A DNA stretch of 64,000 bases from Clostridia bacterium. GTDB lineage: Bacteria > Bacillota > Clostridia > Lutisporales > Lutisporaceae. The stretch is taken from assembly GCA_035628995.1 (NCBI GenBank), contig DASPIR010000029.1:1-64000 (forward strand), given 5' to 3'. The notes under the pieces are model-generated. The model was not told the origin of the DNA and did no database searches. It saw nothing but the letters and a program-made list of their open reading frames with translations. Shown here piece after piece: positions 7,540-47,663 of the stretch. Position 1 is the first letter of the stretch. Every line of letters starts with the position of its first letter. Made by a program: the position numbers and the translations under genes.

Positions 7540-9708
7540 TTAATCTTCCCTTTTATTGCGTTTTGCCTCAACCAGAACAAAATCTATAGTTCTACTGGAG
7601 ATATCAGCATTCAGAACCCTTATTCGTGCATTGTCACCTATCCTGTAGATCTTTTTCAGCCTTTCGCCAATTAGCATGTGATGTACCTCATCATACTGAT
7701 AGTAGTCATCCTCAATGTTGCTGATGTGCACTAAACCTTCAATAGTATTTTCCAGTTCAATAAACATTCCAAAGGAAGTGACATTGGATATTATTCCGTC
7801 ATATTCCTCCCCTATCCTGTCCTTCATATACTCCGCTTTCTTGAGGTCTTCGACAGCTCTTTCCGCTTCATCCGCTGCCCGCTCTCTGATAGAACACTGC
7901 TCTGCAATACTCTCAATTATCGACTGCAGATGCTTCACTCTCTTTTCCGTGAGCTTCCCATGGATACCCTCTTTTATAATCCTGTGTATCATAAGGTCAG
8001 GATACCTTCTTATAGGCGAAGTGAAGTGGCAGTAATACTTTGCAGCAAGTCCAAAATGCCCCATGCTGGTGGAAGTATATCTTGCCTTTTTAAGAGAACG
8101 CAGCATCAATGTATTTATAATTCGCTCTTCTTTCGTCCCCTTAATCTGATCTGTAAGCTGCTGCAGTGCTTTCGGGTGAATCTCCGCGATTCCCTTAAGA
8201 TGGTATCCAAAGTTGAATATAAATTCATTAAAAGCCTGAAGCTTTTCTGCATTAGGGTCTTCATGCACTCTGTAAACGAAAGGCAGCTCTTTCCAGAACA
8301 TATCCTCAGCAATGGTTTCATTGCACACAAGCATAAATTCCTCAATTATCCGCTCAGATATTCCTCGTTCGTAAGGTCTTATTTCTATGGGCTTGCCCTT
8401 TTCATCCAGTATGATTTTGGATTCCTCAAATTCAAAATCGATGCTTCCTCTCGTGCGTCTCCTTTTGTGCAGTATTTGCATGAGGTTCTCCATTTGCTTG
8501 AAGTTATCTGCAAGATCACTGTACCTTGCCATTACTTCGGGATCATTGTCGGTAAGTATCTTGTTTACATTCTTATATGTCATTCTTTCTTTTGTCTTTA
8601 TGACACTTTCATATATCTCATATCTCTGCACCTTGCCCTTTTTGTCTATCTCCATATCACAGCTCAAGGTCAGCCTTTCTATTTGAGGATTCAAGCTGCA
8701 GATACCATTGGAAAGTCTTCTTGGCAGCATTGGCACCACCCTGTCAACCAAATATACGCTTGTGCCTCTCTTAAAAGCTTCCTTATCAAGATACGAATTT
8801 TCAAAAACATATTGAGTTACGTCAGCAATATGTACACCCAGCAAGTAATTGCCATTTGGAAGCAGCTCTACGGATACAGCATCATCCAGGTCTTTCGCAT
8901 CCTCCCCGTCTATCGTGACAATGACTTTATCCCTCAAGTCTCTTCTCTTTGCAATGTCTTCTTCGGAAACCTTCTCCGGTATTTTCTCGGCTTGGCCTTC
9001 CACCTCAGATGGGAATTCTTCCGGCAGATTGTGTCCTCTTATGATTGATATAATGTCTGTACCTACATCATCTTTATGTCCTAAAATTTCTACAACTACA
9101 CCCTCAGGGTTTCTCCTTGCCTCCGGCCATTGTGTTATCTCAACTACTACCTTATGTCCATCCTTTGCACCATTAAAGTCAGATTTGGATATGAATACAT
9201 CCTGATATATCCTCGGATCGTCAGGCACCACAAAACCAAAGCCTTTGCCATTCTCAAAGGTTCCTACAACCTTTTCGTTTGCCCGCTTCAGTATCTTGAT
9301 TACCTCGCCCTCGCTCTTCTTGGTGCCTATTTCACCTGAAGTAAGTCTTGCAATTACTCTATCATTGTTCATTGCACCATTAAGGCCTTCTGCGGGTATA
9401 AAAAGGTCATATATATCCTTGTTGTCCGGTATGAGAAAACCAAAGCCTTTTTTATTGCCTTGAATTCGACCTGCTACAAGATTCATTTTTTCAGTCACGC
9501 CATACTTATTCTTTCTTGTGACTATTATACTTCCGTCCTCAAGCAGTGAATTTATTACTTCATCAAATTCCGATGTCTGTTGAAAGTCTTGCTGAAACTC
9601 TTGAATCAGTTCATTATATGACAGGGGTTTGTACGTGTCCTCCTTCATGAAGGACAACAACTTATTCTTCATTTCCAGATTTACTTCTTTTTCTTGATTA
9701 TCCAACAC
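7540..9708 (-). CDS. rnr: Ribonuclease R (3'-5' exoribonuclease)
   Basis: A 722-residue processive 3'-to-5' exoribonuclease that degrades structured RNA and works with tmRNA in removing damaged mRNA. In order: an N-terminal winged-helix segment (about 10-80), two cold-shock/OB domains (about 80-135 and 145-215), the RNB catalytic domain (about 255-580) and an S1 domain (about 630-710). The catalytic acidic cluster is at about 267-276 (DGEDAKDLDD), and RRLSNGICSLNP and HFTSPIRRYPDL are typical RNB motifs. The start is GTG at 9708 with AGAGGTG upstream. Length and synteny (esterase-rnr-smpB-ssrA) are as in Bacillus. Confidence 0.96.
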   Translation of the reverse strand: MLDNQEKEVNLEMKNKLLSFMKEDTYKPLSYNELIQEFQQDFQQTSEFDEVINSLLEDGSIIVTRKNKYGVTEKMNLVAGRIQGNKKGFGFLIPDNKDIYDLFIPAEGLNGAMNNDRVIARLTSGEIGTKKSEGEVIKILKRANEKVVGTFENGKGFGFVVPDDPRIYQDVFISKSDFNGAKDGHKVVVEITQWPEARRNPEGVVVEILGHKDDVGTDIISIIRGHNLPEEFPSEVEGQAEKIPEKVSEEDIAKRRDLRDKVIVTIDGEDAKDLDDAVSVELLPNGNYLLGVHIADVTQYVFENSYLDKEAFKRGTSVYLVDRVVPMLPRRLSNGICSLNPQIERLTLSCDMEIDKKGKVQRYEIYESVIKTKERMTYKNVNKILTDNDPEVMARYSDLADNFKQMENLMQILHKRRRTRGSIDFEFEESKIILDEKGKPIEIRPYERGISERIIEEFMLVCNETIAEDMFWKELPFVYRVHEDPNAEKLQAFNEFIFNFGYHLKGIAEIHPKALQQLTDQIKGTKEERIINTLMLRSLKKARYTSTSMGHFGLAAKYYCHFTSPIRRYPDLMIHRIIKEGIHGKLTEKRVKHLQSIIESIAEQCSIRERAADEAERAVEDLKKAEYMKDRIGEEYDGIISNVTSFGMFIELENTIEGLVHISNIEDDYYQYDEVHHMLIGERLKKIYRIGDNARIRVLNADISSRTIDFVLVEAKRNKRED

Positions 9709-9726
9709 TGCTGCACCTCTCTTCTA

Positions 9727-9835
9727 AATATTTCACGAAATACATTTTCATCTTTATTCGAACTTCGCGTAAATGTTTCATTGGTTGTTATTGAGTTTGC
9801 ACTATGCCCAAGGGGAATACATTTGTGCACTCAAT
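9727..9835 (-). repeat. Two-hairpin dispersed element, copy A
   Basis: The minus-strand sequence starts ATTGAGTGCA (9835 downward), and its partner arm TGCA-AA-CTCAAT lies at 9790-9801. A second stem is formed by CGCGAA (9764-9769) and TTCGTG (within 9734-9740). It aligns over its whole length with copies B (47550-47660) and C (10609-10714). The first stem differs from B and C at two positions, and in both the pairing partner has changed too. It overlaps the 3' end of the esterase gene, supplying its last codons and stop. Confidence 0.75.
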
Positions 9836-10594
9836 ATTTTTTTCCTTTTCTCTTTTGAAAGCTGATTTGGTCTTTATAAAACTGTATACTTCCTCAAAAA
9901 CCTGCTCCTTTTCCTTATCGCAGGTTATTAAATGACCACTTTTTCGGAGATAAATAATGCTCTTATCTTTAGACCCTATATTGTTGTATATTATATTCGC
10001 ACTCATAGGACTGACTGTCCTGTCTCCATAGGATTGCATAACAAGCACAGGCTTTTCAATATATTTAAGGTTTGTTTTTACATATCTTATTAACTTGAAC
10101 AGATTATGCACGCTTATTATGGGGGATCTGTCATAGCTTATTATATTAATATCCTTCTTTTCCTGGTTTCTTAGTATGTATGTCTTAAAATTCCTTTCAA
10201 TAAATGAGAAGGCAGCTAATCTGCCATGTATTCTTATAGGTGCTGAAAGGGTAGCAACACCTCTGACATCATAATTTCTTGCAAGATATAGTGATAACAG
10301 TCCTCCCATGGAAAGCCCCACAGAAAATACCTCATCACACTCCTGCTTAAGTGACTTATAACCCTCCACAGCTCCGCGTATCCAATCCCTATAACCACAC
10401 CTTTTCATATCTTCAGGTGTTGTCCCGTGTCCTTTTAGAAGAATTCCCTTTACTGTATATCCTTTGTCCCGGAGGAATTCGCCCAGAAAACGCACTTCAG
10501 AGGGAGTTCCTGTGAATCCGTGAATTAGCAGTACGCCTGTATTGTTGCCTTTATAATAAAATTCTTTTGCAAATTCACTATTCATATCGTTCAA
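9788..10594 (-). CDS. Alpha/beta hydrolase, Est30/YvaK-type carboxylesterase
   Basis: A 268-residue serine hydrolase. The HGFTGTPSE motif forms the oxyanion region, GLSMGG holds the nucleophilic serine, SYGDRTV the acid and KSGHLITCD the catalytic histidine. These match the monoacylglycerol lipase / Est30 carboxylesterase family, whose gene lies between secG and rnr in many Firmicutes as here. I prefer the TTG at 10594, 8 bases after AGGAGG, over a GTG at 10603 that overlaps it. The C-terminus is odd: after the final helix a tail of about 15 residues ending PLGIVQTQ is encoded by repeat copy A. The natural substrate is unknown. Confidence 0.88.
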   Translation of the reverse strand: MNDMNSEFAKEFYYKGNNTGVLLIHGFTGTPSEVRFLGEFLRDKGYTVKGILLKGHGTTPEDMKRCGYRDWIRGAVEGYKSLKQECDEVFSVGLSMGGLLSLYLARNYDVRGVATLSAPIRIHGRLAAFSFIERNFKTYILRNQEKKDINIISYDRSPIISVHNLFKLIRYVKTNLKYIEKPVLVMQSYGDRTVSPMSANIIYNNIGSKDKSIIYLRKSGHLITCDKEKEQVFEEVYSFIKTKSAFKREKEKNIECTNVFPLGIVQTQ

Positions 10595-10608
10595 AAAAAC
10601 CACCTCCT

Positions 10609-10714
10609 AGCGTTTTAAAAAAAACATTTTTCAAACCAATTCAAATTTCATAAAACGTTTCCTTAGCGTTATTGAATTCGCACACCGCCCTATAAACATT
10701 CTGTTGCGTTCAAT
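10609..10714 (-). repeat. Two-hairpin dispersed element, copy C
   Basis: The minus strand starts ATTGAACGCA (10714 downward), paired with TGCG-AA-TTCAAT at 10671-10682. The second stem is CGTTTTA (10651-10657) with TAAAACG (10611-10617). This stem has a different sequence from copies A and B but the same position. The element ends directly against the AGGAGG ribosome binding site of the esterase gene, so it would be in that gene's 5' leader. Confidence 0.75.
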
Positions 10715-10807
10715 ACTACAATTATTATGGACATATTTGCACTATTACATTCAGAAGGCTTTTTCTGCAATTTAGATAATCAGCATCACCAGAAAACTGT
10801 TTCTTTT

Positions 10808-28624: not shown

Positions 28625-29929
28625 TTATTTATCAAAAACTGTCTGTCCATGTACTTCCGTTTCAAGGGCTTTAAGTGCTTTTAACACTATGCCTCTTCTC
28701 AGTGTCTTTTCATCTTCCTTGCTCAGCACTGGATTTCCAAGCGGATGTGGTATTGCAATCGCTGGAACTATCCTATTCGCACCAACTGTCAAGGAAATCG
28801 GAACAACGGTACAAATGTGCACTACCGGAATTCCTGCTCTTTCAATTTCTTTTACCATCGTTGCACCGCAACGCGTACAGGTACCTCAGGTCGAAGTGAG
28901 TACAACAGCCTGCACTCCGTCCTTTATAAGTTCCTGGGCAAATGTTGCAGCAAACTTCTTTGAATTTGCAACTGAGGTTCCGTTACCTGTTGTTGTATAG
29001 AAATATCTATGGAGCTCTCCAATGATACCTTCCTTTTCCATATCTCTCAATACGTCCACAGGAAGCACTCTGTCTGAATCCTGGTTAGCATACGTTGGGT
29101 CATATCCGCCGTGAGCTGTCTCATAAGTCTCTGCGGTCAAATCATTAACCCCTTTAATATCATACTTTCCATATTTAGAAGCACTTGAGGACTCTATTCT
29201 GTCAGGATTGCCCTTTGGCACTATACCACCTGAAGTAACAAGCGCTACCTTAGCTTTCTTTATATCCAGCACTGGAGGATTTGGAGCTACTCTATCAAAG
29301 TTAGGCATTGGGTACTCAGTTTCAAACGCTTCTCCCTTAAGCTTGGCTACAAGCATGTTTACAGCCCTCTTGGAGCCTCTTTCTGATTTGAATACGTTCT
29401 TTCTAATTCCCCTTGGCAGATATCCTTCCTCAGCCGGAGCCCCGATGCTCTCATTTTTAGCCAGTTTCAGAGCCAGCTTTGCAATTGCAGGGATAGCCTG
29501 CCTCATGCCAGTTGCAGCATTTGCTGTTCCAACTATATGAAGGTCTTTCTTGAACATGTCTACTCCGGGATTTTCTACATACATACCTGTTACTGCCGGA
29601 ATATTCAATTTTTCTTTAACTGCTTTACAGATTGATCCACATGCTACTCCGTATCTTCCTGCATTGAAAGCCGGACCGGCAATGAATAAATCCGGATTGT
29701 ACTTCTTAACCATTCCCAATACTTCTGCAGAAGCTTCTTCGATATTTTCATTGAAATATGAGTCCCCGCAGATTACTGTGGCTACTATCTCAGCATCAGT
29801 TCCCAGTGCTGCCTTGAGAGCCATCCCGGGACCAACAATGCCTTCTCTAACTTCTGGTTTGACATCAGCTTTTTCTTCACCGCCAATACCACCATAGAAT
29901 TGATTTATATAATGTACAACTCTAATCAT
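28625..29929 (-). CDS. grdB: Glycine reductase complex protein B, selenoprotein subunit (selenocysteine at UGA)
   Basis: A 434-residue substrate-activating subunit that attacks glycine to form a selenoether. The reading frame is interrupted by UGA at 28886-28888 (residue 348). The flanking sequence VVLTST-U-GTCTRCGATMV, and the perfect continuation of the family sequence through LTVGANRIVPAIAIPHPLGN to the stop at 28625, show that UGA encodes selenocysteine and not a stop. A hairpin suited as a bacterial SECIS follows 12 bases later. ATG with GGAGGG upstream. GrdB acts with the cleaved GrdE subunits. SelA-D are not in this window and must lie elsewhere. Confidence 0.96.
28859..28873 (-). promoter_or_regulatory. 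Likely bSECIS hairpin of grdB
   Basis: CGTTGC-GGT-GCAACG forms a perfect 6-bp stem with a G-containing apical loop, starting 12 bases after the UGA. This is the distance and shape expected for a SelB-binding bacterial SECIS. Confidence 0.65.
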
Positions 29930-33841: not shown

Positions 33842-34014
33842 CCTAAACCTGAGATATTCTTCGAATATGAGCTTATAATCTCACATAACGAGTTGATCCT
33901 TCGGTGCTTTCGCTTTCCAGAGGTGCGTCCATTCTTCGGTCCTTTTGCCTGAGAGCTTCGTCATACAGCATTTTGATATGACTTCTTCCTTCGGCGCCAT
34001 ATTGGTCTCTCCCG
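33836..34014 (-). promoter_or_regulatory. Tandem glycine riboswitch (gcvT type) upstream of grdX
   Basis: The minus strand contains two successive glycine aptamers. The first (34014 to about 33937) has GGGAGAGACC, GGCGCCGAAGGA and CTCTCAGGCAAAAGGACCG. The second (about 33928 to 33836) has CCTCTGGAAAGC, GCACCGAAGGATCAA and ATCTCAGGTTTAGGACAGAG. The short linker and order are those of tandem gcvT-type riboswitches. With the overlapping terminator this predicts an ON switch: glycine allows transcription of the glycine reductase genes. Confidence 0.92.
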
Positions 34015-34110
34015 AAAAACATCTACCGCAGTATTCACTTTTTCTATAGCTATAATACATACTATATGAATTATCTATTCATTCAATAATTTGGTTTATA
34101 TTGCATTTAT

Positions 34111-47510: not shown

Positions 47511-47549
47511 TAATTTAATACCGTATTTATAAGTAATCATTAATTCTAT

Positions 47550-47660
47550 ATTGAACGCAGATCAGAAATTACATTGGGTATAGTGCGAATTCAATAACAA
47601 CTAAGGAAATATCTACGCGAAATTTGAATGAAGATTATTAAATGTTTTTCGCGAAATATA
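47550..47660 (+). repeat. Two-hairpin dispersed element, copy B
   Basis: Plus strand: ATTGAACGCA (47550-47559) pairs with TGCG-AA-TTCAAT (47584-47595) and CGCGAAA (47616-47622) with TTTCGCG (47647-47653). Between the stems AATAACAACTAAGGAAA is shared with the other copies. It is oriented opposite to the flanking genes, so here it would not be in the sense of a transcript from them. Confidence 0.75.
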
Positions 47661-47663
47661 TAA

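Follow-up and report, generated by a model that had tools for sequence, protein, structure and literature searches.

Two-hairpin repeats of Clostridia: an apparently undescribed family of probably mobile DNA elements

Two-hairpin elements around an esterase-like gene

The window analysed here is a stretch of 64,000 nucleotides from a member of the Lutisporaceae (contig DASPIR010000029.1), whose genome of 3.65 Mb we refer to as the host genome. On its minus strand an RNase R gene follows an esterase-like gene, and two copies (A and C) of a short two-hairpin element flank the latter; a third copy (B) lies about 37 kb away, on the plus strand. The features are listed below with scores of R1, a covariance model whose training set included the three window copies, so that their E-values are to be read accordingly.

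7540 to 9708, minus strand: RNase R gene, downstream of copy A (open reading frame; match to the RNase_R NCBIfam equivalog)
9724 to 9839, minus strand: copy A, whole element, between the genes for the esterase and RNase R (R1, 111.9 bits, E 1.6e-19)
9728 to 9776, minus strand: hairpin 2 of copy A, ACATTT-a-CGCGAAG ... TTTCGTG-AAATAT (sequence and alignment to R1)
9788 to 10603, minus strand: esterase-like gene, between copies C and A (open reading frame set against the coordinates of copy A)
9790 to 9835, minus strand: hairpin 1 of copy A, ATTGAGTGCA ... TGCA-AA-CTCAAT (exact pattern match)
10606 to 10718, minus strand: copy C, whole element, immediately upstream of the esterase gene (R1, 79.2 bits, E 3.7e-13)
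10611 to 10658, minus strand: hairpin 2 of copy C, decayed, with the lower stem CGTTT/AAACG retained and the upper stem weak (sequence and alignment to R1)
10671 to 10714, minus strand: hairpin 1 of copy C, ATTGAACGCA ... TGCG-AA-TTCAAT (exact pattern match)
47546 to 47663, plus strand: copy B, whole element, antisense to the flanking minus-strand genes (R1, 125.9 bits, E 3e-22)
47550 to 47595, plus strand: hairpin 1 of copy B, ATTGAACGCA ... TGCG-AA-TTCAAT (exact pattern match)
47609 to 47659, plus strand: hairpin 2 of copy B, ATATCT-a-CGCGAAA ... TTTCGCG-AAATAT (sequence and alignment to R1)

The three copies had been proposed in a first-pass annotation of the window, which left open whether they represent an undescribed structured RNA or a small mobile, MITE-like element. 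Indeed, the hairpin-1 pattern ATTGARYGCA-N20-40-TGCRAAYTCAAT matched the window exactly three times, at these positions, and was absent from all of 100 shuffled windows. The AA bulge that the annotation described is common to all three copies in the sequence alignment, and the two compensatory pairs that it saw between copy A and copies B and C (A-T to G-C and C-G to T-A) are present in the sequence. Its further claim, that the second stem is kept while changing in sequence, held in part. The full stem of hairpin 2 consists of ACATTT, one unpaired A and CGCGAAA, pairing with TTTCGCG and AAATGT; in copy C the lower stem is retained but the upper one is weak, and the segments compared were not equivalent, being the upper part of the stem in copy B and mainly the lower part in copy C.

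Comparison of the open reading frame with the coordinates of copy A showed that the element supplies the last 16-17 codons and the stop codon of the esterase-like gene (9788-9838). The folding energies of the three window copies were ordinary (z of -0.1, -2.2 and -0.5), so that folding of single sequences would have missed the element. Since single copies are not unusually stable when folded, the evidence for it is comparative.

Copy number, anatomy and covariation

A DNA search of the host genome with copy B as the query gave 43 matches. R1, built from 29 copies, gave 72-73 at E<=0.01 and also matched the host's own genus and a second genus of the family, and a broader covariance model, R2, gave 75 host matches at E<=1e-4, these E-values being rough because calibration was shortened. 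With R2 we found 27 and 18 matches in two genomes of the host's own genus (G004 and G005), and in the second genus 53 (G006), 49 (G019), 40 (G015) and 17 (G012), a fifth genome having 2; in five other genera of the family R2 found none. Class-wide, a match at 1e-6 was found in 5 of 147 genomes and 4 of 106 genera; beyond these two genera and Pseudobacteroides cellulosolvens, the class has almost no copies. A scan of named genomes revealed it in Pseudobacteroides cellulosolvens (55 matches with a hairpin-2 model, about 50 copies) and in several uncultured Clostridia. One copy used as the query against plasmids and against phages gave no match; carriage by a phage or plasmid was rejected as an explanation, short pattern matches in viral contigs proving not to be the element. 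The first-pass annotation had proposed a covariance-model search of the genome and its relatives, with a lack of further copies or of stem covariation counting against its idea; the outcome is about 75 copies in the host, with strong covariation, and tens in relatives.

Every full copy follows one plan: hairpin 1, a linker around AAGGAAA (the shared block already picked out in the window copies), hairpin 2 and sharp ends. The element is about 115 bp long, and 100-155 bp across subfamilies. Conservation starts 2 bases ahead of hairpin 1 and stops in the last few bases past hairpin 2; on either side it is lost within about 2 bases, and the flanks have no sequence in common. The ends read CTAT...ATAG, with the outer two bases little conserved. 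An outer CTAT/ATAG stem closing a three-way junction was considered and rejected, as its pairing (168 of 264) equalled that of shuffled ends (167.7).

The copies fall into subfamilies a (TTGAACGCAC), b (CTATATAAATCGCAC), c (CTATATAGGTTGCA) and d (CTATATATGTTGCG/ACG), the last being about 150 bp long and carrying a further hairpin inside. All have in common the loop of hairpin 2 (TTTGAAT ... TGTAAAATGTTT) and the AAGGAAA linker, and their stems are wholly different. In three of them, b, c and d, inspection shows the outer arms of hairpins 1 and 2 to be similar when read as inverted repeats. In some copies the hairpin-2 module is joined to other 5' modules, and the family is therefore modular. 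At three loci (L033, L084 and L112) a third hairpin, with a TTGAAT-type loop as in hairpin 2, directly follows the element on its 3' side, so that longer mosaics exist. We also noted a second dispersed palindromic module, CCTTCCAGGC...GCCTGTCAGC ... GAATGGACTnATTAAGGAAA, at about ten places in the host genome, sometimes abutting the hairpin-2 module; examples are L028, where it lies upstream of the element, and L157, L159 and L166, the four loci being on host contigs C23, C30, C10 and C33.

Within the host genome, two-sided changes occurred in 11 of the 24 stem pairs, with 30 doubly changed cells against 9.3 ± 2.1 after shuffling. Across genera they occurred in 21 of 24 pairs, with 223 such cells against 81 ± 8 after shuffling and at most 23 for slid structures, and the covariation score was 0.478 against 0.194 (shuffled) and <=0.087 (slid); these cross-genus values lean towards the structure because that alignment, unlike the one within the host genome, was fitted to it.

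Empty sites and candidate mobilisers

For ten host copies we removed the element and searched the genus with the joined flanking sequences. In relatives, single alignments cross the junction unbroken at esterase-rnr (copy A), trmD-rplS, pth, rplM and the ygeY-like gene; the orthologous sites are therefore without the element. At pth, G005 has a diverged copy, and G001, G002 and G004 have none. Conversely, G005 carries a copy in front of a transporter gene, between its start and the preceding stop codon, that is missing from G000, G001, G002, G003 and G012, where about 20 bases separate that stop from that start; in this clean case the host has the empty site. Such presence and absence is most simply read as insertion, loss in every relative being unlikely. 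Together with the many copies, the subfamilies amplified within genomes and the sharp ends, the empty sites bear out the mobile alternative of the first-pass annotation. We consider it probable that the repeat is a non-autonomous mobile DNA element, made of two hairpins and a conserved linker and moved by a putative transposase acting in trans.

The terminal hairpins would be what such a transposase, supplied in trans, recognises, probably in the form of single-stranded DNA, and it would insert copies in intergenic gaps. Selection would purge those that disrupt genes, and many of the remainder would therefore lie squeezed between a stop codon and the Shine-Dalgarno sequence after it. Altered stems that still pair would stay mobile, and in this way subfamilies with new stems could arise and amplify.

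Neither an autonomous partner nor a linked transposase turned up at the Y1_Tnp loci and isolated hairpin-2 copies inspected, and two classes of known mobiliser were weighed. A classical MITE would have arisen by deletion from a DDE insertion sequence and would be recognised through its terminal inverted repeats (CTATATNNNNYGC...). The discrete ends suit such an origin, as does the likeness that the outer arms of the two hairpins bear to each other, as inverted repeats, in members of subfamilies b to d. However, no target-site duplication stood out in 66 copies, where there were few matches at most whichever boundary or length was tested; no full-length insertion sequence with the same ends was seen at the isolated hairpin-2 copies and flanks that we inspected; and DDE MITEs need no separate covarying hairpin at each end. 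A classical MITE is thus, in our judgement, decidedly unlikely.

A REPIN, in which two REP-like hairpins are mobilised by a RAYT (a Y1 tyrosine transposase) of the same genome, would account for the seemingly inverted pair of hairpins with similar outer sequences (CTATAT...), for the extragenic position, the tens of copies, the subfamilies and the compensatory changes, and for the lack of target duplication. The host does have one RAYT-type gene. This gene is flanked by REP-like palindromes of its own, GGGACaGGTACCttGTCCC (L098, 1240-1430 and 2220-2270; host contig C8, about 73.4-74.4 kb), and its locus lacks the two-hairpin element, on which ground we rejected it as the partner. Models R1 and R3 revealed nothing convincing adjoining any of 20 Y1_Tnp loci, and G007 and G011 have a gene of RAYT size yet lack the element. 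We regard the REPIN explanation as highly improbable. A TnpA of the short IS200 type was likewise sought in the host, and none was found.

Orientation and neighbouring genes

Open reading frames were called by a simple script, and the following counts of gene context are therefore approximate: of 72 host copies, 40 lie sense and 11 antisense in gaps between genes of the same direction, 18 in divergent gaps and 3 in convergent ones, the respective numbers for 30 copies of P. cellulosolvens being 14, 2, 9 and 5. The shares of the gap types roughly track the intergenic space available, and a depletion between convergent genes found no support when that space was taken into account. In contrast to what neutral insertion would give, the pooled ratio of sense to antisense copies between same-direction genes was 54:13 (p about 4e-7). 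Such a bias exceeds neutral insertion unless there is selection or strand-specific insertion, and it counts against the mobile-element reading. Replication-strand bias as the source of the orientation bias in P. cellulosolvens was set aside, the association being weak by eye with sparse GC-skew sampling.

In the host, 29 of 57 downstream start codons lie <=25 nt from the end of hairpin 2. In tight operon gaps such proximity is to be expected, room being left only between the stop codon and the Shine-Dalgarno sequence; the sense bias is not explained by that limited room. The stems provide a second point of this kind. Among 54 copies of subfamily a, departures from the majority amounted to 3% of letters in the stem of hairpin 1 and 2% in the bulge, against 26-27% in the loops, and in the most similar pairs of copies (picked by loop distance) the loops differed and the hairpin-1 stems hardly did. 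Stems so nearly unchanged could mean selection at the present sites of the copies, which also counts against the mobile-element reading.

These observations, with the strong covariation, speak for a cis-regulatory leader RNA, akin to a riboswitch or a protein-binding leader, that would have been dispersed to many genes and would work from the 5' untranslated region of each. The genes downstream are, however, unrelated (among them RNase R, L13, aspS, pth, pepT, uppP, a pseudouridine synthase and a sugar kinase), and these housekeeping neighbours form no coherent regulated set. The orthologous sites are empty in relatives, the stem sequences are specific to subfamilies, antisense copies such as copy B occur, only 4 of 30 copies in P. 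cellulosolvens lie <=25 nt from a start codon, and Rfam offers no match. Selection on RNA should moreover favour G.U over A.C mismatches, whereas we counted 26 G.T and 26 A.C in the stems across genera, and 11 and 9 at the inner pairs of the 54 subfamily-a copies; the near equality, in these small numbers, gives no sign of RNA-level selection. As a rough yardstick, G.U made up 6.7% of the pairs drawn in tRNAs from the same loci, by a program that draws no A.C. A leader RNA is accordingly very unlikely, and the structured-RNA alternative of the first-pass annotation is not borne out, given the lack of a G.U excess and of a regulon, the ordinary folding energies and the wholesale differences of stems between subfamilies. 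A common leader peptide was also dismissed, as by inspection the reading frames are not the same between subfamilies.

Given the sense bias and the conservation of the stems, some copies may act in host leaders within the mobile-element reading. On a further reading, a mobile hairpin would have been domesticated as a general 5'-leader device, lying sense and abutting the Shine-Dalgarno sequence, with stems selected at each site; it would protect unrelated operon genes, for example against a 5'-to-3' exonuclease, or set their translation, and a putative hairpin-recognising transposase would exchange its stems between subfamilies. We think this unlikely.

Comparison with known repeats

Palindrome-associated elements derived from IS200/IS605 resemble the present family in their terminal hairpins, the lack of target duplication and a possible strand preference, all features of IS200/IS605 themselves. 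The ends of IS200/IS605 are recognised on the same strand, beside a fixed target of 4-5 nt; here, in contrast, no flank is conserved and no short IS200-type TnpA was found in the host. ERIC and Correia elements are likewise intergenic repeats of about 100-150 bp that form hairpins, and they are transcribed and can alter the neighbouring mRNA. They differ in having a single long palindrome or 26-bp terminal repeats, and occur in other phyla (see also PMC3049150).

In design the closest relatives are REPINs (PMC3116915), and in habit BOX repeats (PMC3049150). REPINs, or BIMEs, are REP doublets mobilised by RAYT (PMC3116915, PMC3733652), and our element shares with them its short extragenic form, the occurrence in tens of copies, subfamilies within a genome and compensatory changes; by inspection it may also share the build from two palindromic units set in inverted orientation about a spacer. 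The units here, however, are long hairpins of about 45-50 nt, each having a large loop of its own, the GTAG or CGTC tag (PMC3733652) is absent from the hairpin foot, the linker is strongly conserved and the element does not lie beside the RAYT of the host. The BOX, RUP and SPRITE repeats of Streptococcus pneumoniae, also a low-GC Firmicute, are modular, structured, non-coding mobile repeats of 100-200 bp that can be co-transcribed with neighbouring genes (PMC3049150), the likeness seen being one of plan. Whereas the pneumococcal repeats are over-represented between convergent genes (PMC3049150), the location of our element tracks intergenic space, and its copies in same-direction gaps are mostly sense.

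Lacking linkage to RAYT, the tag and a target duplication, the element is filed as neither a REPIN nor a classical MITE. Four literal stretches of it occurred in no relevant paper of the open-access literature, in which a search on clostridial miniature elements gave nothing on point; a survey of stem-loop repeats describes small families in C. perfringens and C. tetani (PMC2267715). We thus appear to be dealing with an undescribed family of small, non-autonomous, hairpin-built mobile repeats of the REPIN/BOX/MITE kind. Work on small mobile repeats such as REPINs, BOX and ERIC has gone furthest in Proteobacteria and streptococci; the present family belongs to Clostridia and has one host in culture with a sequenced genome, the cellulose-degrading P. 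cellulosolvens. In this family new stems have taken the place of old ones several times, and the pairing, the linker and the motifs of the loops were kept, a natural experiment on hairpin recognition by a transposase. The family also urges caution: a new regulatory RNA is usually argued from strong covariation together with a position ahead of genes, and mobile DNA can give rise to both.

Known RNAs in the window and host genome

A known RNA was rejected as the identity of the element: no family of Rfam 15 reached its gathering score for the three window copies, copies elsewhere had no Rfam match to the element at E<=1, and the weak matches there were unrelated. The window itself carries a bacterial SECIS element (28848-28885, minus strand) and a glycine riboswitch (33927-34024, minus strand) about 5 kb apart, which suggests genes for a selenoprotein and for glycine metabolism. 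Elsewhere in the host, a candidate 6S RNA at L160 (7451-7640; contig C21) scored 44.5 bits, against an Rfam cut-off of 46.4.
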